Source of the DNA: a virus
DNA: 30,577 nt
Strand: one strand, 5' to 3'
Virus record (IMG/VR): IMGVR_UViG_3300034101_004187
Location: 1-30,577 of that record
The notes under the pieces were generated by a model. The model was not told the DNA's origin. It saw only the letters and a program-made list of their open reading frames with translations, and searched no databases. This document shows, piece by piece, positions 3,535-26,552 of the stretch; the first letter of the stretch is position 1; each line of letters starts with the position of its first letter. The position numbers and the translations under genes were made by a program.

Positions 3535-3786
3535 ATGGCTCAACCGGACCAGGACATGATGGGCTGCGACCAGGTGATGGGTGTAGTCATGGGCGATGTA
3601 ACCCAGCGGGCAAGTGCCGCGATGAAGTACCTGGAGTGGCTGGAGGGCGTGACTGGTCCCCGGTGGATCGGGACTGAGCGCGGTGCGGTCAAGCAGGAGG
3701 GTCGGAAGGCCAGCGACGGGGAGCTGGAGGTCCGGAAGGCCGCGTTGCACTACCTGCGGCTGCACTTCCTGGGCGAGATGGACTGA
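3535..3786 (+). CDS. Small hypothetical protein, 83 aa
   Basis: Starts at ATG 3535, with AGGAGG (spacing about 5 nt) lying just after the helicase stop, so it is co-transcribed with the helicase. The protein is acidic at its start (MAQPDQDMMGCDQVMG) and helical toward the end (VRKAALHYLRLHFLGEMD). No domain is recognised. Its position directly downstream of the helicase and just before a terminator makes a small replication-associated or accessory role plausible, without proof. Confidence 0.7.
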   Translation: MAQPDQDMMGCDQVMGVVMGDVTQRASAAMKYLEWLEGVTGPRWIGTERGAVKQEGRKASDGELEVRKAALHYLRLHFLGEMD

Positions 3787-3810
3787 TAACGAGCTTCTTC
3801 TCTCCATGCG

Positions 3811-3836
3811 CCCCTGCCACCTTCGGGTGGTGGGGG
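3811..3836 (+). terminator. Hairpin terminator after the helicase operon
   Basis: CCCCTGCCACC and GGTGGTGGGGG pair (with two G-T pairs) around a TTCG loop closed by C-G, the very stable UNCG tetraloop type. It starts about 25 nt after the 3535-3786 gene. The following tract (TGTTTGCTTATG) is only moderately T-rich. It fits an intrinsic terminator closing the helicase operon. Confidence 0.7.
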
Positions 3837-3869
3837 TGTTTGCTTATGGGGCCAAGGGGGCGTACCGGA

Positions 3870-3898
3870 GTGACCTGGTGGTTTCTATCCTTTATATA
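3870..3898 (+). promoter_or_regulatory. Candidate sigma70-type promoter
   Basis: GTGACC (3870-3875), 17 bp spacer, TATATA (3893-3898): four of six matches to each sigma70 consensus box, at the left edge of the AT-rich island. It would read rightward toward the gene at 4204. Host sigma preferences are unknown. Confidence 0.35.
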
Positions 3899-3965
3899 TA
3901 ACTATCTCTACGAAGGAAAGAAAGGTTGGTATTACTGGTACGGGTTAGGGGTTTGGTAGGGAATT

Positions 3966-3995
3966 TTGAGAGGGATTGACCCTTTCCCATATTAT
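3966..3995 (+). promoter_or_regulatory. Candidate sigma70-type promoter upstream of the 4.2 kb gene series
   Basis: TTGAGA (3966-3971), 18 bp spacer, TATTAT (3990-3995): five of six matches in each box, the best promoter-like pair I found. A start near 4002 would give a leader of about 200 nt containing the 4120-4148 hairpin before GTG 4204. Confidence 0.5.
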
Positions 3996-4119
3996 CAGAC
4001 CCCAACGCAGGGGCCGCTACCCCCTCCCTCGACCGTGCTAGCGCGTGGCGCGGTCAGCGCAAAACGGCGCAGAGGCTCCTCGACGGGCGGGCGGTTGAGC
4101 GCGTGGTCGCGGCGCTTCC

Positions 4120-4148
4120 GTGACCTCCCTTCTTGCGAAGGAGGTCAC
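4120..4148 (+). repeat. Leader hairpin with TTGC loop
   Basis: Perfect 9 bp arms GTGACCTCC (4120-4128) and GGAGGTCAC (4140-4148); TTC/GAA extends the stem past one bulged C, leaving a TTGC loop. It lies 55 nt before GTG 4204. The same loop recurs in three further intergenic hairpins (4573, 5019, 5252). It could be a terminator/attenuator or an RNA-processing site. Confidence 0.6.
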
Positions 4149-4203
4149 TACCGCGTGTTGCGGTTGTGTCCATCCTGCATCCGTTTGCGAAAGGACGCCC
4201 ACC

Positions 4204-4563
4204 GTGGCTACCCGAACTGCTGCCGTTTCCACCGTTTCCGCTGACCTCGCCGCTGCTATCGCCCGTGCCGAGGCTGCCGAAGCCCGTGCCGCTGCCGCCG
4301 AGGCGCGCGCCGCCCGACTCGCCATCGAGTCCTGCGACTACGAACTCGTCGTGACCACCGGCATCCCCTCCAAGTTCGCCGGCGCGCCCGCGTGGGGCAC
4401 GGTCGAGTTCGTCAACCGCCGCACGGGCGACAAGCGCGAGATGCGCTACGTCTCGGAGCGCACCTCGACCCGGGCTGATGGCGCGACCGTCCTGACGGTC
4501 TACGCCAACAAGCCCGCGCCCGCTGCGCCCGTCGCGTCCAGCGACGCTCCCGCCGCCTCGTGA
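4204..4563 (+). CDS. Hypothetical Ala-rich coiled-coil protein, 119 aa
   Basis: Start chosen at GTG 4204 because GCGAAAGGA (4187-4195) lies at ribosome-site distance; longer upstream readings run through the leader hairpin. Residues about 12-40 are an Ala/Glu/Arg helix (AEAAEARAAAAEARAARLA) that should form a coiled coil. Residues 45-100 look like a small beta domain, and the tail is Ala/Pro/Ser-rich (PAPAAPVASSDAPAAS). No family is recognised. First gene after the candidate promoters and the first of a series separated by hairpins. The alanine and C-ending codon use is extreme. Confidence 0.65.
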   Translation: MATRTAAVSTVSADLAAAIARAEAAEARAAAAEARAARLAIESCDYELVVTTGIPSKFAGAPAWGTVEFVNRRTGDKREMRYVSERTSTRADGATVLTVYANKPAPAAPVASSDAPAAS

Positions 4564-4572
4564 CGCCCCTGC

Positions 4573-4605
4573 GCCCCCCTCCCCCTCTTGCGAGGGGAGG
4601 GGGGC
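4573..4605 (+). terminator. Intergenic hairpin with TTGC loop
   Basis: GCCCCCCTCCCC pairs with GGGGAGGGGGGC; a bulged C, then TC/GA and a TTGC loop. It follows the 4204-4563 stop by 10 nt and is followed by TTTCTCTCTCTC, so it looks like an intrinsic terminator. Confidence 0.7.
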
Positions 4606-4670
4606 TTTCTCTCTCTCCCGTGCGTCCCGTGTGTCGCACACCAACCCCGTGCTCGCGAAAGGAGCATTCC

Positions 4671-5012
4671 GTGTTTGACTATTCCCGTCTTGAGTCCGAC
4701 CTCGTCGTCCTGCGTTCCGTCCGCGACATCATCGCCGCAGCGGCGGGCTCCGCGCGTCTCGCGTCCGTCCCTCGCCTCAACCCCGACGTCGGCGCAACCA
4801 CGGACATCGGCATCGCGGTCGAGTACCTCGACGCCGCCATGGACCAGATCGACGAGGCCATCGCGACCATCGCGCCCCACATGCCGGGCTACACCCCGCC
4901 GTCCGCGGAGATGGACGGAGACCGCGACGCCGGCCTCGTCTGCGCCTCCTGCCAGCACGACCTGGAGCAGGACGCTGACTTCCGCTGCGTACGGTGCGGT
5001 ACGCCCTCGTGA
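4671..5012 (+). CDS. Hypothetical protein with C-terminal zinc ribbon, 113 aa
   Basis: Start chosen at GTG 4671, preceded by GCGAAAGGAG (4655-4664); an upstream start at 4560 would translate the terminator hairpin. N-terminal helical part (MFDYSRLESDLVVLRSVRD) and a central amphipathic helix (EYLDAAMDQIDEAIATI). The C-terminus carries two CxxC pairs, CASC and CVRC, spaced as in short zinc ribbons (near residues 92-110). Zinc ribbons of this kind bind nucleic acid or protein; which one cannot be told here. It is flanked by hairpins on both sides. Confidence 0.65.
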   Translation: MFDYSRLESDLVVLRSVRDIIAAAAGSARLASVPRLNPDVGATTDIGIAVEYLDAAMDQIDEAIATIAPHMPGYTPPSAEMDGDRDAGLVCASCQHDLEQDADFRCVRCGTPS

Positions 5013-5018
5013 CCCCTT

Positions 5019-5054
5019 GGGGGTACTTCCCGCTTGCGCGGGGGAAGTACCCCC
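5019..5054 (+). terminator. Intergenic hairpin with TTGC loop
   Basis: Perfect 13 bp arms GGGGGTACTTCCC (5019-5031) and GGGAAGTACCCCC (5042-5054), then GC/GC and a TTGC loop with two extra G on one side. It begins 7 nt after the preceding stop and is followed by TTTCCCCCC. Confidence 0.7.
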
Positions 5055-5098
5055 TTTCCCCCCTCCCCCCACCATCCAACTCCAACCCCGAGGACACC

Positions 5099-5242
5099 AT
5101 GAACGACGACGAACCCAACACCGAGACCTGCGACGGCTGCGAACAGCAGTTCGACCCCGAACTCCTCACCACCTGCCGTTACACCGAGTCCGATGGCAAC
5201 ATCGAATGCCTCCGGTTCTGTCCCTCTTGCATTTCCCACTGA
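5099..5242 (+). CDS. Small zinc-finger-like protein, 47 aa
   Basis: Start at ATG 5099, after GAGGACACC. The 47 aa protein has CDGC near residues 11-14, further Cys at about 26 and 37, and FCPSC at the end, so it has enough cysteines for one or two zinc sites. It is acidic at the start (MNDDEPNTETCDGC). It may be a treble-clef or zinc-ribbon mini-protein; no named family is recognised. Lying between two hairpins, it appears to be a separately terminated small gene, next to another CxxC protein (4671-5012). Confidence 0.6.
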   Translation: MNDDEPNTETCDGCEQQFDPELLTTCRYTESDGNIECLRFCPSCISH

Positions 5243-5251
5243 TCTCCTACA

Positions 5252-5292
5252 CCCCGTGCGGGGGGAGTGCTTGCGCACCCCCCGCACGGGGG
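5252..5292 (+). terminator. Intergenic hairpin with TTGC loop and T-rich tail
   Basis: CCCCGTGC and GCACGGGG form the base, followed by a G/C run and TGC/GCA around a TTGC loop. It begins 10 nt after the preceding stop. The following 40 nt are very T/C-rich (GTTTCTTTCTTCTTTC), the best poly-T-like tail of this series. Confidence 0.75.
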
Positions 5293-5340
5293 TTGCACTC
5301 GTTTCTTTCTTCTTTCTTTCTCTTTCTTACGGAGTCCACA

Positions 5341-5940
5341 ATGGACATCAAGTTCGATTCGCTCGCGTCCGCCGACCTGTCCGCCTTCCGCTACGCCTCG
5401 TCCACCGACTACCCCAACGGCCGCTACTCCGCGACCATCACGAAGGTCGAGCCCCAGACCTCGGACAAGAACGGCGACTTCTGCCTGCGCTTCCGCCTCA
5501 CGCTCGCCGTCGACCAGGCCCAGGGCATGCCCCGCCTGACCGTCACGGACCTCATCTCCTTCACCAACGGCACCGCCTTCTCCGCGGTCGGTGCCAACGT
5601 GTTCTGCGACCTCGTCGAATGCGTCGGCCTGTCCCGTGACTCGGTTCGCAACACCTGCAACCAGCTCCGCGACGCCCTCGCATCCGCCGACAAGCCCGGC
5701 GTCATCTCGTCCTTCCGCTCCATTGCCGAGTACGCGTCCGCCCTCGCCGGCTCCCGCGTCGCTCCCAACATCGAGTGGAAGGCCAGCGGTGACCGCGAGT
5801 TCGCCAACGTCCGCGGCTCGGCTGCCTGCCCCTCCTACCTCTCGGCCGCCAACGAGGTCGACCCCGGTGCCTCGTTCACCGGCGATGACTGCGACATGGA
5901 ACGCCAGCCCAAGCGCAAGCTCAAGGCCGTGCGTCGCTGA
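5341..5940 (+). CDS. Hypothetical protein, possible ssDNA-binding (OB-fold-like) protein, 199 aa
   Basis: Start at ATG 5341, after ACGGAGTCCACA (GGAG). Longer in-frame readings to the left would cross three other genes and two terminators. Residues about 20-75 (YPNGRYSATITKVEPQ, then FCLRFRLTLAVDQ) have the alternating pattern of a beta barrel and resemble phage DUF669/SSB-like proteins that limit or coat single strands. The tail is basic (ERQPKRKLKAVRR). A second protein of similar style lies at 25451-25972 beside the Sak4-like gene. Function is a guess from pattern only; not identified by a clear motif. Confidence 0.65.
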   Translation: MDIKFDSLASADLSAFRYASSTDYPNGRYSATITKVEPQTSDKNGDFCLRFRLTLAVDQAQGMPRLTVTDLISFTNGTAFSAVGANVFCDLVECVGLSRDSVRNTCNQLRDALASADKPGVISSFRSIAEYASALAGSRVAPNIEWKASGDREFANVRGSAACPSYLSAANEVDPGASFTGDDCDMERQPKRKLKAVRR

Positions 5941-5955
5941 GTCCATCCACTCGCT

Positions 5956-5991
5956 CCCCCACCAGCCTCTGCTCCTGCATGCTGGTGGGGG
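5956..5991 (+). terminator. Intergenic hairpin whose arms are inverted GCTGGTGGGGG motifs
   Basis: Perfect 11 bp arms CCCCCACCAGC (5956-5966) and GCTGGTGGGGG (5981-5991) with a 14 nt loop, 15 nt after the preceding stop. Both arms are copies of the Chi-like motif that recurs throughout the window. No T-tract follows, so it may be a terminator, a processed hairpin, or a DNA-level site. Confidence 0.6.
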
Positions 5992-6016
5992 ACGGGCTCT
6001 CCGCGAAAGGAACCAC

Positions 6017-6598
6017 ATGCCATCTCCATCTCTTCCGTCTCTCACCGTCGCCGCCCTCCTCACTCCCATCCCGTTCTCGTGCTGGGTCGTTCGCCACTCC
6101 GAGATCGACGCCGTCACCCCCACCACGCTGCCCAACCTCCCGCTCACCGAAGACCACCGTCCCTACTTCTCAGCCCCAGCCCACGACACGCTCGCCGAGC
6201 CCATCTCAGTCCCCGCCGAAGTCGATGGCTCCTACACCGAGGAGTTCTCGTTCCGCGCCGCGTGGGAACTGACCCGCTCGCTCGAGTCCCTGCCCGGCCC
6301 GTGGCAACACGCCTACCGCCAGTGGAATCGTCGCCTCTCCGAGCACGACCTCTCCATGTCCGCTGGCGGCGCGCACCGTTACGCCCAACCCCAACCCGCG
6401 CGCATCACCCCGCGACCACCGTCCCCCGCCATCCTCTCCACCTGCCAGCACGATCAGCGCCGCGCACTCCGCGCACGCCTGTACCGCCGACTCGGCATCG
6501 TCCGCTGTGCCCGCACCAACCGACTTGCCCGTGACCCCGACTCGTCGTGGACCTCCCACGCCCCTCTCGACCGGCGTGTCCTCTGGGCCCAGACCTGA
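6017..6598 (+). CDS. Hypothetical protein, 193 aa
   Basis: Start chosen at ATG 6017, preceded by GCGAAAGGA (6003-6011), the same leader as the genes at 4204 and 4671. The N-terminus (MPSPSLPSLTVAALLTPIPF) is hydrophobic, but it lacks a basic n-region, so a signal peptide is doubtful. The middle has Trp-rich helices (FRAAWELTRSLESLPGPW). The C-terminal half is Arg/Pro-rich and ends VLWAQT. No family is recognised. Strongly C-ending codons match its neighbours. Confidence 0.6.
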   Translation: MPSPSLPSLTVAALLTPIPFSCWVVRHSEIDAVTPTTLPNLPLTEDHRPYFSAPAHDTLAEPISVPAEVDGSYTEEFSFRAAWELTRSLESLPGPWQHAYRQWNRRLSEHDLSMSAGGAHRYAQPQPARITPRPPSPAILSTCQHDQRRALRARLYRRLGIVRCARTNRLARDPDSSWTSHAPLDRRVLWAQT

Positions 6599-6621
6599 CC
6601 ACCACCCCCGTCCTTTCGCAT

Positions 6622-6660
6622 CCCCCGCGCAGGGCCGCTCACGCGTCCCCTGCGCGGGGG
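6622..6660 (+). terminator. Intergenic hairpin
   Basis: Perfect 13 bp arms CCCCCGCGCAGGG (6622-6634) and CCCTGCGCGGGGG (6648-6660), 13 nt loop, 23 nt after the preceding stop, followed by ACTTCCTCTTCATTTCCC. Terminator-like; lacks the TTGC loop of the earlier ones. Confidence 0.65.
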
Positions 6661-6696
6661 ACTTCCTCTTCATTTCCCTTTGACCGGAGCAGTCCC

Positions 6697-8615: not shown

Positions 8616-8916
8616 CCACACGGGGTGGGACCCGGTTCTCTGACGAGGTGCCCCGGCTTGTTGCCGGTCGTATGCGCCGGGCTCCCACCCCACCAAGCCA
8701 CTGCCTAGACCTACCTGCAGCCGGTCGAAGCAACGTGGAAGCACCGCTGATCCGCCGTCGTACACCGGCGGGAAGGTGCGAAGTATCCCCCAGCCACCCG
8801 TCCGCCTCTGAGCACAGCCTCTGCTACTCCCTGCCGTGATATCCGCGCACAGTTCTGCAAGTTCGTCAACCATGCTAAGGCTCTGGCTGGTGGGGTACAT
8901 TTTCCCGAGGTCCCAC
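8616..8916. other. 300 bp intergenic gap upstream of the UDG gene
   Basis: Holds a long stem-loop at 8622-8691 and one exact GCTGGTGGGG motif (8886-8895). Short frames across it lack ribosome sites and have no credible composition. I see no convincing promoter hexamers, although a promoter for the downstream chain is expected here. Confidence 0.5.
8622..8691 (+). terminator. Long two-level stem-loop after the 7992-8615 gene
   Basis: Outer stem GGGGTGGGACCCGG (8622-8635) pairs with CCGGG-c-TCCCACCCC (8677-8691; one bulged C). An inner hairpin CCGGC-TTGTT-GCCGG sits at 8653-8667. It is about 70 nt long, 7 nt after a stop. It may be a terminator or a small structured RNA. No T-tract follows. 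Confidence 0.55.
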
Positions 8917-18781: not shown

Positions 18782-20545
18782 ATGAACGAACTTCAACTCA
18801 CCGCGTCAGGCACGATCCCCGGCTACAGCTGCGTCAAGCTGGTAGGGTCAGATCAAGTCGGAGTCACCACCTCCAGCTCCGATGTCGTGTTCGGGGTGAC
18901 CACCTTCTCCCAGAAAGAGAACGGGGAGATTGTCCAGCTGCAGAGTGACGAGAACAGCACTCGACTCCTGCGGGCAGGAGGGACCATTGCCGCCGGCGAC
19001 TTCCTTGTCCCCACAACCAACGGCTCGGTGATTGCGTCTTCTTCTGGTGTGTTTATTGCTTCTGAGTCTGCAGTTTCAGGTGAAACATTTTGGGCATCTC
19101 AAGTTCAATTTGCGGGAGGAGCCCCTTCTGTTTCGATCTCGGGAACAAGCGCGAATGGTTTCAATTACACGTTTAATTCAAATGTAAACACCATCACGCC
19201 AACCGGGGCAAGCGGATCGAACGCCAACACGATTTCCGGCGGCGGCAACAGCGCGAACCCGAACCTCATCCTGAACAACGCAGCCGACCCGACTTGCGCG
19301 TATCGCACCATCGGCGGCGGATACGACAACGTCATCGGCAGCACCAATCTTGGCGACGGCGCAATCGCCAGCATCGTCGCCGGTGGCGCGCACCATCGCG
19401 TTCGCAGGCCCACGGACATTTCGGACAACCCAAACCCCGCGTTGTCGGGACTCAACCCGGCTCCGACCACCGCCTGCCTATCCTTGGATCAGCCGGATCA
19501 CGGAACCATTGGCGGCGGCGGATACAACGCGATCCGCAACGGCAACTACGGCACGATTGCGGGCGGCGAGAACAACGTCCTAGAGGGAGAGAACGCCACC
19601 TACAACACCGCGCAGGGCGCGACCATCGGTGGTGGCGGCATCAACTTCATCACCGGCAACTACGCGACCATTGCTGGCGGCATCTACAACAAGGCACAGC
19701 AGATCTGGTCTGTTATCTGCGGCGGCTACGAGAACTACATCCAGATCCTGGATGCAACGCTGTTCAGCAACAACAGCGCAACAATCGGCGGTGGGAAGCA
19801 GAACCGAATCTACAACGGAAGTGCAGCGACCATCGGCGGTGGACTGACCAACAGGATCGGCGCGAGCGGCGATGCGGCGAATGATCGCGGGACGGGATCG
19901 ACCATTTCCGGCGGCGTCGACAACACCATCGGGGCCAATGGGACGAATGCGCGATACGCAAACGTGACCGGAGGGCAGCTCAACACCGTGAATGCGTGGT
20001 GGGGCAATGTCCTCGGCGGCTATAACAACCTCGTCAGCCCGAGTTCGTTCCCGAACGGCGAGTACTCGGTGGCGATGGGACGGGATGCCGAATGCCAGCA
20101 CCACATGACCGTGTGCCAGGGCGGCGGGATCTTCACGGGTGCGGCGCGAGGCAGCGCACAGACGCAAACCACCGTGCTGAAGGTTTCCACGTCCAACGCA
20201 ACTGCGACCGCGCTGGTTGCCGGTGGCGGTCCCGCGAACTCCGGTGAATTGGCGATGCCAAGCGATTGCCTGTGGGGATATCGCGTCATGGTGGTTGGGC
20301 GGCAGACGAATGCCAACACCAACTGCGCCTGGGAAATCACAGGGCTGGCAACCAATGACGCCGGAACCGCGGCCATCGTTGGAACGCCAACCGTGACGGC
20401 CCTGAATACCGTCCCGGCTGGATGGGGAAGCCCGACCGTGAGCGTCACCGGAAGCAGCACGCGGCTGTTCTTCAATGTCACGGGAGCGACATCCACCACA
20501 ATTCGGTGGGTGGCGCGAGTAGAAATCACTCAAGTCATTTCATAA
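18782..20545 (+). CDS. Tail fibre / head-fibre-like protein with GG-repeat beta-solenoid
   Basis: 587 aa. Residues about 1-95 (MNELQLTASGTIPGYSCVKL and GTIAAGDFLVPTTNGSVI) resemble the DUF2190-type N-terminus used by phage decoration or fibre proteins to attach to the virion. Residues about 176-418 contain about eleven repeats of the type (T/V)I(G/A)GG..N.(I/V), each about 14-25 residues. Such repeats form left-handed beta-solenoid trimers in YadA-like adhesins and phage fibres. The last 100 residues form a beta-rich tip (WGYRVMVVGRQTNANTNCAW ... RVEITQVIS). A trimeric receptor-binding fibre is the most likely reading. No ribosome site is visible. Confidence 0.8.
   Translation: MNELQLTASGTIPGYSCVKLVGSDQVGVTTSSSDVVFGVTTFSQKENGEIVQLQSDENSTRLLRAGGTIAAGDFLVPTTNGSVIASSSGVFIASESAVSGETFWASQVQFAGGAPSVSISGTSANGFNYTFNSNVNTITPTGASGSNANTISGGGNSANPNLILNNAADPTCAYRTIGGGYDNVIGSTNLGDGAIASIVAGGAHHRVRRPTDISDNPNPALSGLNPAPTTACLSLDQPDHGTIGGGGYNAIRNGNYGTIAGGENNVLEGENATYNTAQGATIGGGGINFITGNYATIAGGIYNKAQQIWSVICGGYENYIQILDATLFSNNSATIGGGKQNRIYNGSAATIGGGLTNRIGASGDAANDRGTGSTISGGVDNTIGANGTNARYANVTGGQLNTVNAWWGNVLGGYNNLVSPSSFPNGEYSVAMGRDAECQHHMTVCQGGGIFTGAARGSAQTQTTVLKVSTSNATATALVAGGGPANSGELAMPSDCLWGYRVMVVGRQTNANTNCAWEITGLATNDAGTAAIVGTPTVTALNTVPAGWGSPTVSVTGSSTRLFFNVTGATSTTIRWVARVEITQVIS
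19307..20034 (+). repeat. Tandem coding repeats of the fibre solenoid
   Basis: Encodes about eleven imperfect repeats beginning TIGGG, TIAGG, VICGG, TISGG, NVTGG or NVLGG, followed by ..N.I/V. DNA repeats are diverged (ATCGGCGGCGG or ATTGCGGGCGG variants), so the similarity is stronger at the protein level. Confidence 0.75.
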
Positions 20546-24476: not shown

Positions 24477-25376
24477 ATGACACACTCCGTCACGCACGGC
24501 ACCACTATCGCATCCAAGTACGCTGGTCTCGGCAATGCAGTCACCACTGGTCGCACTACTCCTGCCCGCATGCTTGGCCTTGTGGTCGGTGAGGCTGGCT
24601 GCGGCAAGTCTTTTCTCCTCCAGTCCCACCCTGGCGCGTACATCCTCAACCTTGACGAGACTCCTGCGGTATGCGGGACCAGCGAAGCGGTCATGTTCCC
24701 CACCCCCGGTCCTGACGGCCGATCAGTGGACGAGAAGGGAAATCCCATCGTGCTCGACTGGTCCGCACTCGAGGCGAAGCAGAAGGTGCTCATTGAACTG
24801 GCGAAGGCCAACCAGCCGCGGCCCGAGACCGTGGTGATCGACACCCTCGGTGCAGCCATCCGGCTCCTCCGTCCGCACATCGCCAAGATCTACGGCCGCG
24901 AGCGGTTCACCGACGTCGACGGCCGGCTGGGCTGGGAACGCCTGTTCGACACCCTGATCGAGTTCGGCACTGTCCTGCGCCGGCACGGTTACGGCGTCTA
25001 CTACATCGCGCACCTGTCCCGCAAGCACGTTCCGCTCAGCGAGAACCAGAACGTCGAGGAGTACAAGATCCTCATCTCGGACGGCCTGTACGCCCGCATG
25101 TTCCCCATGTTCGACATCGTCATCCCGATCACCGCGCAGTGGGACGTGCGGGAGATCAGCCGGGATCAGGAGACCAACGTGGGCGGCAAGGTAGTCACGC
25201 GCCGCGTTACCAGCCAGGAGAAGGTGCGCCGCCACTACTGCTCCTTTGACAACCCGAAGCTCGAGGGCATCGCCAAGGTCCGCACGCTGTCGCCGCTCAC
25301 CACCATTGAGCTCCCCCGCGACAACGCGTGGCAATCCTTCTGCGCTGCCTACGAGAGCGCGAACGCGTCCCGCTGA
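24477..25376 (+). CDS. Sak4-like RecA-fold recombinase/ATPase
   Basis: 299 aa from ATG 24477, with AAGGAG upstream. Walker A GEAGCGKS (residues 38-45, K44) and Walker B TVVIDTLG (D122) in a RecA-type fold; the C-terminal half is beta-rich (EKVRRHYCSFDNPKLEG). The size, motif spacing and position next to an SSB-like gene fit phage Sak4 single-strand-annealing recombinases, though other AAA_24-type ATPases are possible. It would pair or anneal single strands made by the adjacent nuclease. Its stop codon sits in the loop of a hairpin (25359-25394). Confidence 0.75.
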   Translation: MTHSVTHGTTIASKYAGLGNAVTTGRTTPARMLGLVVGEAGCGKSFLLQSHPGAYILNLDETPAVCGTSEAVMFPTPGPDGRSVDEKGNPIVLDWSALEAKQKVLIELAKANQPRPETVVIDTLGAAIRLLRPHIAKIYGRERFTDVDGRLGWERLFDTLIEFGTVLRRHGYGVYYIAHLSRKHVPLSENQNVEEYKILISDGLYARMFPMFDIVIPITAQWDVREISRDQETNVGGKVVTRRVTSQEKVRRHYCSFDNPKLEGIAKVRTLSPLTTIELPRDNAWQSFCAAYESANASR

Positions 25377-25394
25377 CGCGGGGGTCGCGTTCGC
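25359..25394 (+). terminator. Hairpin over the Sak4-like stop codon
   Basis: GCGAACGCG (25359-25367) and CGCGTTCGC (25386-25394) pair perfectly; inside, CCCGC/GCGGG surround the loop that carries the TGA stop (25374). A T-rich tract (CGTTTCGTTTGTTTCGTTTCTTTC) follows, so termination or partial read-through control is plausible. Confidence 0.6.
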
Positions 25395-25450
25395 TTCCAC
25401 CCATCGTTTCGTTTGTTTCGTTTCTTTCACCCATCTCTACGGAGAATCAG

Positions 25451-25972
25451 ATGCCCATTGAGAACAACGTCAAGGCCATGTTCAACTCGCTCAACAACAC
25501 CTTCGCCAACGTGCAGCCGGACAACGGCATGGGCGCTGGCGGCTGGTGGCCGGCAGAGGGTCAGCACGAGGTGTTCGTGTCCAGCCTCAACGTCCGCCCG
25601 AGCGAGTACAAGCTGCCTGACGGTCAGAAGGTGGCCGGCACGGAGATCGTGTTCCGCTACCAGCTGATCAACGACACCGACCAGCCGAACGAGCCGCGCT
25701 CCTTCGACGGTGCCGCCTTCCGTCTCCCCCAGGACACCAGCGTCCTGGACGACAAGGGCCGCATGCGCGTCGAGATCGAGGCCCGCCGCCTGAAGGGTCA
25801 CCTCCAGACCATCCTGCGCCGGGACGTCAAGGATATCGGTACCGCCCTGGCGGACGCCGATGCCAAGATCAACGGTCAGGACGCGGTCGCCGTCGTGGTC
25901 AAGTGCCAGTACGACAACGTCAACGGCAAGACTTACCGCAAGGACTTCCTCGTGAAGCCCCTTGCCGGCTGA
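25451..25972 (+). CDS. Putative ssDNA-binding protein (DUF669-like), 173 aa
   Basis: Start at ATG 25451, after GGAGAATCAG. Begins MPIENNVKAMFNSLNN, then GGWWPAEGQHEVFVSSLNV and EIVFRYQLINDTDQP, a beta pattern with Trp and aromatic residues as in phage DUF669/SSB-like proteins. The end is basic-neutral (YRKDFLVKPLAG) with no acidic tail typical of bacterial SSB. Position after a Sak4-like gene fits, since Sak4 recombinases usually have an SSB partner. A similar-style protein is at 5341-5940. Named by context. Confidence 0.7.
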   Translation: MPIENNVKAMFNSLNNTFANVQPDNGMGAGGWWPAEGQHEVFVSSLNVRPSEYKLPDGQKVAGTEIVFRYQLINDTDQPNEPRSFDGAAFRLPQDTSVLDDKGRMRVEIEARRLKGHLQTILRRDVKDIGTALADADAKINGQDAVAVVVKCQYDNVNGKTYRKDFLVKPLAG

Positions 25973-26004: not shown

Positions 26005-26093
26005 GGGGGAGGGTTGCTCGCAAGGCGCCCTCCCCCTCATAGTCCCCCGGATAGCCCCCCGGTTGCCCCGCACGACGGAGAGCGACCGGGGGG
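26005..26093 (+). terminator. Two successive GC-rich palindromes before the 26115 gene
   Basis: GGGGGAGGG (26005-26013) pairs with CCCTCCCCC (26028-26036), and CCCCCCGGT (26055-26063) pairs with ACCGGGGGG (26085-26093). They occupy most of the 142 nt gap. A CCCCACCAGC motif (25994-26003) lies just before. Probably a terminator and/or leader structure. Confidence 0.55.
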
Positions 26094-26114
26094 TTTCCGG
26101 AGGGGGGAGAACAA

Positions 26115-26552
26115 ATGTACGAGACACGGTTCGTCTACCAACTGCCGCTTTCATCCGCAGGGGATGTCGGGAATCACGTTGCAGACGTAGTGCAGGCAAC
26201 AGGACACGGACCGACCAACGTCAACTTCATCGTGGACGAGAGCGAATCCACCGTGACGGTGACGTACATGACGCAGACCACGCGGGAAAGCGATCACATC
26301 ATCAACAACTGGAAGCGCATCAACGGTCGGGTCCAGGTCGAGCGCACCCACAAGATCAACCCCGACCACTTCCGCAACCTGGCCATGGCCGGCGAGGAGA
26401 ACCGCAAGCTCCGCAGCCACATCGCGCTGGAAGTGGAGCGTATGTGCCTCAAGGGCGTGGGCAGCAAGGGTGTGCTGGACTACCTGCTTGAGTGCGAATC
26501 GGTGATTGTCGAGCTCAAGGAACTCGTACAATCACAGCGTGCATCAGTCTGA
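26115..26552 (+). CDS. Hypothetical protein, 145 aa
   Basis: ATG 26115 with GGAGGGGGGAG just upstream. Sequence begins MYETRFVYQLPLSSAGDVGN and has a central beta-like part (NFIVDESESTVTVTYMTQ), then a helical C-terminal third (CLKGVGSKGVLDYLLECESV). No family is recognised. Last but one gene of the rightward block. Confidence 0.65.
   Translation: MYETRFVYQLPLSSAGDVGNHVADVVQATGHGPTNVNFIVDESESTVTVTYMTQTTRESDHIINNWKRINGRVQVERTHKINPDHFRNLAMAGEENRKLRSHIALEVERMCLKGVGSKGVLDYLLECESVIVELKELVQSQRASV

Follow-up and report, generated by a model that had tools for sequence, protein, structure and literature searches.

Hairpins in the gene gaps of an uncultured phage: probable terminators, an ordinary Shine-Dalgarno sequence and conserved RNA structures that are plausibly regulatory

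Introduction

In phage T4, the mRNA of the single-stranded DNA-binding (SSB) protein gp32 is repressed by the protein itself. The operator consists of a folded element and, after it, a leader of more than 40 nt that is less structured, bears repeats and runs to the ribosome-binding site; phage RB69 uses the same autoregulation with an operator whose sequence has diverged (PMC535899, PMC3014915). A 2010 review suggests that the pseudoknot of gene 32 is perhaps the sole viral structure of its kind in autoregulation (PMC3014915). Three other described systems invite comparison: icaR of S. aureus, the known parallel for a 3' untranslated region (3'UTR) that carries an anti-Shine-Dalgarno element (PMC3868564); the cluster K mycobacteriophages, with a fixed 13-bp start-associated sequence (SAS; GGGATAGGAGCCC) and with ESAS inverted repeats, which have a sequence consensus and for which RNA pairing is not supported (PMC3203893); and operons that combine many terminators with antitermination (PMC8955417). 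Here we describe the hairpins in the gene gaps of an uncultured phage, IMG/VR record IMGVR_UViG_3300034101_004187, whose whole 30.6-kb stretch (30,577 nt) is called the window below. The original prediction had seen in these gaps one family of hairpins with TTGC loops, together with a repeated leader motif, GCGAAAGGA. The hairpins are real, but the unifying TTGC idea is wrong: they are several kinds of plus-strand transcript structure with different jobs. Some are probably terminators of the usual sort, and two or three are conserved structures for which a regulatory role is plausible; the repeated leader motif is an ordinary ribosome-binding site. All functions assigned below are read from sequence.

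Results

Gap hairpins and the TTGC loop

Hairpins were called by a compact-hairpin scan, the window being too GC-rich for sliding-window RNA folding to give a clean signal along its length. TTGC loops closed by C-G on unrelated stems do occur where they had been reported, at 4120-4148, 4573-4605, 5019-5054 and 5252-5291, and the further stems at 5955-5992 and 6621-6661 are also strong. Folded as single strands, these hairpins have z-scores between -4.0 and -6.4, a stability reached by 0 of 200 shuffles, and the gaps at 4564, 5013, 5243 and 6599 are stronger than all 300 of 300 shuffles. Within 2111-26552, every hairpin scoring at least 33 (6/6) lies in a gene gap, although gaps account for just 7% of the sequence there (binomial p 1.4e-7). 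The set reaches further, to 3808, 22689, 25359 and 26005. At 26005-26114, upstream of the gene at 26115, another GC-rich hairpin (GGGGGAGGG...CCCTCCCCC) is accompanied by a second inverted repeat; the first of the two is kept in the relatives L008, L014 and L022.

What does not hold is the loop. The TTGC hairpins are imperfect, each with a bulge of 1-2 nt placed 2-3 bp below the loop, and CTTGCG is frequent in the window in any case (47 copies against 23 expected). Among the close relatives, some ten viral contigs with a DNA polymerase 82-98% identical to that of the window, the loop at 5252-5291 is TTGC, GTTC, TTC, GTT or TGGT, and that at 4120 is TGAT, GTT or TTTAT. The TTGC loop thus varies at orthologous positions, which refutes a single loop-recognised RNA family. 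The prediction had named covariation as the other half of its own test, and here the outcome was strongly positive for two hairpins, A and B, which supports a functional structure. A scan of the window against Rfam gave no match at the gathering threshold and chance-level matches only at a relaxed one.

Covarying hairpins A, B and C

5252-5291, plus strand: hairpin A, with a 14-bp covarying outer stem, a 5' bulge, an upper stem of 3-4 bp and a small loop (TTGC here)
6621-6661, plus strand: hairpin B, 17 bp with a 1x2 internal loop, a constant CGC/GCG upper stem and a variable loop
22689-22724, plus strand: hairpin C, bulged, directly before the Shine-Dalgarno sequence of a PD-(D/E)XK nuclease gene, with no U-tract

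Hairpins A and B are conserved across the genus. In A, the 14 outer pairs are 100% paired across 8 distinct sequences; variation is found at just six of them, and 5 pairs have changed on both sides. All 17 pairs of B are likewise 100% paired, 8 of them changed on both sides, these counts being of sequences and not of events. The covariation score of either hairpin was reached by 0 of 500 shuffles, and the signal was lost when one partner was slid against the other. An asymmetric bulge is retained as well: 1-3 nt on the 5' side in A, and in B the 1x2 internal loop beneath the constant stem. Hairpin C is also conserved in shape, as the more distant phages L051-L053 keep it with different stems. 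At the base of A, U-G pairs occur on the plus strand.

Two predicted OB-fold genes and their leaders

25359-25394, plus strand: hairpin D, sister of A, spanning the stop codon of a Sak4-like gene
5341-5940, plus strand: gene for a predicted OB-fold, SSB-like protein, after hairpin A (AlphaFold2/Foldseek, PHROG)
25451-25972, plus strand: gene for a second predicted OB-fold, SSB-like protein, after hairpin D (AlphaFold2/Foldseek)
5292-5340, plus strand: U-rich leader with CGTTTCTTTC at 5300-5309, the proposed downstream half of a translational operator
25395-25450, plus strand: U-rich leader with CGTTTCTTTC at 25419-25428, before the second OB-fold gene

The genes that follow A and D are both predicted to encode oligonucleotide/oligosaccharide-binding (OB)-fold, SSB-like proteins. 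Their AlphaFold2 models have a mean predicted local distance difference test score (pLDDT) of 77 and 84, respectively, and for both the top match in the PDB is PrgE, a DNA-binding OB-fold protein (Foldseek probability 1.00, E ~3e-4, template modelling (TM) scores of 0.34-0.56). RPA and SSB entries come next. A further, weak match of the 5341 protein is to a PHROG SSB family (E 0.0017). From the hairpin to the start codon, the leaders of A and D (49 and 56 nt) have T contents of 0.50 and 0.42, ranks 1 and 2 among 34; their mean unpaired probabilities, 0.72 and 0.61, are unexceptional among gaps. The two share CGUUUCUUUC, which is found nowhere else in the window, and the 10-mer CGTTTCTTTC has two copies in the window, one per leader (0.01 expected). 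In near-complete contigs of four relatives (G001-G004), plus-strand copies of CGTTTCTTT are confined to these two leaders, though not every one of the leaders has a copy; a stray minus-strand copy in G004 is the exception. At D, the T-rich leader is kept in L051-L054, at about 54% protein identity.

A folded element is thus followed at both loci by a U-rich leader up to the ribosome-binding site. Because this is the layout of the gp32 and RB69 operators, we tentatively propose that A and D, each with its leader, are translational operators of the SSB-like genes, a suggestion to which we give somewhat less than an even chance. The protein made from the downstream gene would bind the folded element, then spread over the CGUUUCUUUC-containing leader and cover the ribosome-binding site. 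Its synthesis would stop when the single-stranded DNA has been coated, much as that of T4 gp32 does. The likeness to the gene 32 operators extends to the folded RNA, the less structured, U-rich and repeat-bearing leader of more than 40 nt, a gene downstream that is predicted to be SSB-like, and a structure that is kept while sequences diverge (PMC535899, PMC3014915). The differences lie in a GC-rich bulged hairpin instead of a pseudoknot, in CGUUUCUUUC instead of UUAAA repeats, in an unrelated phage with two OB-fold genes sharing one leader box, and in a repression that is here a proposal. The stop codon of the Sak4-like gene lies in the loop of D, and a ribosome that reaches the end of this gene would therefore melt D.

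The leader motif and its 3' complement

4187-4195, plus strand: extended Shine-Dalgarno sequence GCGAAAGGA of the gene at 4204 (16S-tail complementarity, copy count)
4655-4663, plus strand: extended Shine-Dalgarno sequence of the gene at 4671 (16S-tail complementarity, copy count)
6003-6011, plus strand: Shine-Dalgarno sequence GCGAAAGGA of the gene at 6017, candidate partner of 6611-6619 (complementarity, joint change)
5955-5992, plus strand: hairpin F, in the leader of the gene at 6017 (sequence conserved in 11 loci from about 10 phages)
6611-6619, plus strand: TCCTTTCGC, complement of the Shine-Dalgarno sequence of the 6017 gene, in the 3'UTR directly before hairpin B

As had been noticed, GCGAAAGGA stands just upstream of the starts at 4204, 4671 and 6017; the window holds four plus-strand copies and one minus-strand copy against 0.19 expected. 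It turned out to be an extended Shine-Dalgarno sequence. Only GAAAGGA is conserved within it, 5-8 nt upstream of the starts and complementary over 7-8 nt to the 16S tail CCUCCUUUC (a common bacterial sequence, which may not be the host's), and the idea of a special motif was dropped since the preceding bases vary from leader to leader and among relatives. We also discarded an antisense gene started by the minus-strand copy at 6611, whose starts and lengths vary among relatives. With the SAS/ESAS elements of the mycobacteriophages, the window has in common a repeated element at the starts of non-structural genes, about half of them with upstream inverted repeats (PMC3203893). It departs from them in that the leader motif is GAAAGGA, a complement of the 16S tail, and in that the gap stems covary without a consensus; the locus is not of the SAS/ESAS type.

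The gene at 6017 stands out at both of its ends. The sequence of hairpin F in its leader (CCCCCACCAGCCTCTGC...GCTGGTGGGGGA) is conserved in 11 of 11 loci compared, unlike that of the neighbouring hairpins. The complement of its Shine-Dalgarno sequence at 6611-6619 is perfect and sits inside the same gene's 3'UTR, adjoining hairpin B. Across clades, the two sides change jointly: GC-GAAAGGA is found with TCCTTTC-GC, GCTGAAAGGA with TCCTTTCAGC, and GCAGAAAGGA with TCCTTTCTGC. The match measures 9-11 nt inside clades and 7-8 nt across them. In S. aureus icaR, too, a 3'UTR element complements the Shine-Dalgarno sequence of the same mRNA and the open reading frame is enclosed between them (PMC3868564). 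The present case is a phage mRNA with a match of 9-11 nt beside a covarying hairpin, and the complementarity is kept across relatives (over just 8 nt in L008). To a long-range pairing between the 6017 Shine-Dalgarno sequence and 6611-6619, predicted from sequence, we give somewhat less than an even chance: hairpin B would mark the 3' end of the message, and the element beside it could pair with the gene's own ribosome-binding site.

Probable terminators behind the variable small genes

3808-3839, plus strand: hairpin with a TTCG loop and a U-rich tail, after the gene ending at 3786 (T-score p 0.006)
4573-4605, plus strand: hairpin with a TTGC loop, then TTTCTCTCTC, after the gene at 4204-4563 (T-score p 0.001)
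5019-5054, plus strand: hairpin with a TTGC loop, then TTTCCC, after the gene at 4671-5012 (T-score p 0.004)

Tails were compared by their plus-strand T-score with all positions of the window. By this measure the hairpins at 4573 and 5019 are very probably intrinsic terminators, and 3808-3839, whose position is kept in 8 genomes (T-score p in relatives at most 0.011), reads as one as well. In all three, a GC-rich stem and then a T-rich tail lie past a stop codon, as in Rho-independent terminators generally. In many relatives, the counterparts at variable-gene gaps are followed by canonical U-tracts, with seven T in a row in some cases, and minus-strand T-scores show no overall elevation. Such terminators would limit read-through behind the lineage-specific small genes.

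The remaining hairpins look different. U-tracts are lacking at 4120, 5955 and 22689 (T-score p 0.14, 0.62 and 0.19), which sets these three apart from intrinsic terminators. At 5252 (A), 6621 (B) and 25359 (D) the scores are intermediate (p 0.094, 0.052 and 0.028; in relatives about 0.003-0.28 overall), the tracts being weak or, at A and D, displaced, with U-rich sequence that begins some 9-11 nt past the stem. Judged by their tails, A and B are not clear terminators. The suggestion that every gene might be terminated separately thus stands for 4573 and 5019, with 3808 added, falls for 4120, 5955 and 22689, and is weak for 5252 and 6621.

Leader hairpins and a noncoding RNA

4120-4148, plus strand: leader hairpin 1, with a TTGC loop, one bulged C and no U-tract, in the 5' leader of the first variable gene
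4150-4164, plus strand: leader hairpin 2, ACCGC[GTGTT]GCGGT, with a NYGUU loop, one nt past hairpin 1

At the counterpart of 4120, the relatives L019, L007 and L015 have leader hairpins of other sequence. The second leader hairpin stands between the terminator and the Shine-Dalgarno sequence of the variable genes and has a variable stem of 5-8 bp under a NYGUU or GCGU loop. A hairpin of this type is present in 12 of 24 leaders; the expectation is 0.11 from shuffles and 0.01 per 85 nt across the genome. The count overstates the evidence because the motif was defined after the leaders had been viewed. The tandem stem-loops at 4120 and 4150 recall HK022 put and lambda nut, which also have leader hairpins near the start of the early transcript, and the NYGUU hairpins share with boxB of lambda nut a 5-bp stem and a pentaloop. 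Their loop differs from that of boxB, and the resemblance is one of layout, with no similarity of sequence claimed.

In the distant phage L071, an informal check showed five GCGT hairpins 30-35 nt upstream of Shine-Dalgarno sites. This phage (1640-4979) and the distant L072, L078 and L070 carry a repeated leader element with covarying stems and no Rfam match, built in the order GNRA-loop stem, ATTC, GCGT-loop stem, third small hairpin and Shine-Dalgarno sequence. A covariance model of this element (R2) finds 14 plus-strand copies in those phages and 0 in the genus of the window; homology with the 4120/4150 tandem was therefore rejected, and the two share layout only.

A NYGUU loop also caps a larger RNA. 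On the plus strand at 8616-8900, upstream of the uracil-DNA glycosylase gene, lies a conserved, structured noncoding RNA with a nearly invariant 3' domain (GTATCCCC...AAGGCTCTGGCTGGTGGGGTAC) and a covarying 5' domain in which the NYGUU loop is apical (10 doubly changed pairs, 0 of 500 shuffles). Its core occurs in 17 viral contigs, the distant L069 among them, has no Rfam match and is undescribed.

The genome and its relatives

Between 2111 and 26552, the plus strand encodes a primase/helicase-like protein, a family A DNA polymerase, a uracil-DNA glycosylase, the PD-(D/E)XK nuclease, the Sak4-like protein and small genes. The small-gene region at 4204-5242 is very variable between relatives, yet hairpins are kept in its gaps. 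A nucleotide search against known phages gave no match to the window, and the DNA polymerase is at best about 24% identical to those of known phages. Scanning genome contigs for a host or prophage returned a single match, a 10.6-kb contig of a Myxococcales metagenome-assembled genome, at 41%. The phage RNA polymerase profile PF00940 was without a match in 8 contigs, with the control equally silent.

A very close phage is the contig IMGVR_UViG_3300020514_000004 (L056 and L006 are this one contig), 98-99% identical in the polymerase and 6979 proteins and less so in the small genes. Its ends flank positions ~8.3-12.0 kb of the window, with the assembly break where the noncoding RNA at 8616-8900 sits; from this placement, the genome may be permuted and some 50 kb long. 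At 18782-20545, a 587-aa protein with many IGGG/IAGG-type repeats resembles a trimeric adhesin head (translation judged by eye) and is probably a tail fibre. The AT-rich noncoding block at 3887-4005 (CTTTATATATA...GGGAATTTTGAGAGG), strongly conserved in all relatives, is a probable early promoter or replication origin.

Discussion

How do these parts fit together? In the account we prefer, which we consider to have about an even chance, the locus is a composite: terminators follow the small genes, A and D would serve as operators of the SSB-like genes, and B would stand beside an anti-Shine-Dalgarno element. The most conserved hairpins would probably act as RNA switches, notably before the SSB-like genes, and no part of the account is more specific, or easier to test, than the proposed operator at A and D. 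Several observations weigh against this account. More distant phages carry the gene after D but lack its U-rich leader, and no pseudoknot was shown for A, where a 4-nt loop complement was seen by eye in the L018 leader only, no systematic search having been made. B and C are bulged too, yet precede genes not known as OB-fold, which means that a bulged hairpin by itself does not single out SSB genes; moreover, the OB-fold matches have low TM-scores, and the 5341 model, with its pLDDT of 77, is moderately confident. The Shine-Dalgarno pairing is supported by about three joint changes, and fits poorly in L008; in some genomes a different leader matches the 3' element equally well or better, the latter being the case for W, L009 and L016. 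Finally, the tails of A and B are moderately U-rich in some relatives (T-score p 0.003-0.05), so that partial termination may occur there, and a canonical terminator occupies position B in L008, so that some termination may occur at B.

A bolder reading, which we find rather unlikely as a whole, would see in the same elements an undescribed post-transcriptional network, made of a shared operator at A and D, a 3'UTR anti-Shine-Dalgarno switch, and NYGUU hairpins that imply a common RNA-binding factor. The operator would then be a hairpin conserved in shape and free in sequence plus a CGUUUCUUUC box, before two SSB-like genes ~20 kb apart, with auto- or cross-repression; the NYGUU hairpin would be common to the small variable genes and would also top the 285-nt noncoding RNA.

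Could termination alone explain the gaps? All hairpins, A and B included, might be intrinsic terminators, some complete and others partial, and set graded expression along one early operon; processive antitermination, with the NYGUU leader hairpin as its RNA site, might override them. The hairpins lie 6-22 nt past stop codons, plus-strand U-tracts follow those at 4573, 5019 and 3808 and recur in relatives, L008 has its terminator at B, the NYGUU hairpin is far commoner in leaders than in shuffles, and operons of this design are known (PMC8955417). Yet an immediate U-tract is absent at A, D, C, 4120 and 5955, and the covariation and conserved bulge exceed what a terminator needs. The NYGUU motif was, moreover, a post hoc definition, and an antitermination factor is only hypothetical. 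We consider this explanation unlikely, a little more so than the network.

Less probable again is that the bulged hairpins are sites of RNA processing or stability, cut by an RNase III-like enzyme or blocking 3' exonucleases, which would divide the replication operon into messages of independent stability. Stems that are long, GC-rich and asymmetrically bulged do occur in nearly all plus-strand gaps above 50 nt, and their geometry is kept while the sequence varies. A two-turn RNase III substrate, however, needs a stem longer than the totals of 15-19 bp seen here, with upper stems of 3-4 bp; there is no conserved cleavage sequence, and the U-rich box shared by both OB-fold genes would be left unexplained. 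That the repeats act as DNA, as cruciforms, recombination joints for the swapping of small genes or replication signals, is very improbable: inverted repeats are DNA features too and are kept amid the variable genes of 4204-5242, but the stop-to-start placement, the restriction of U-tracts to the plus strand, the U-G pairs at the base of A and the lack of a conserved core of the att or attC type all speak for RNA.

Returning to the composite reading, most of what is known about SSB autoregulation through a defined RNA operator comes from T4-like phages. If the operators proposed at A and D are true, they would add a second, unrelated lineage with a hairpin-based operator, and the recurrence of SSB autoregulation with different RNA shapes would become testable. 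For phage gaps more generally, stems that covary without any fixed sequence warn against searches that look for motifs only.

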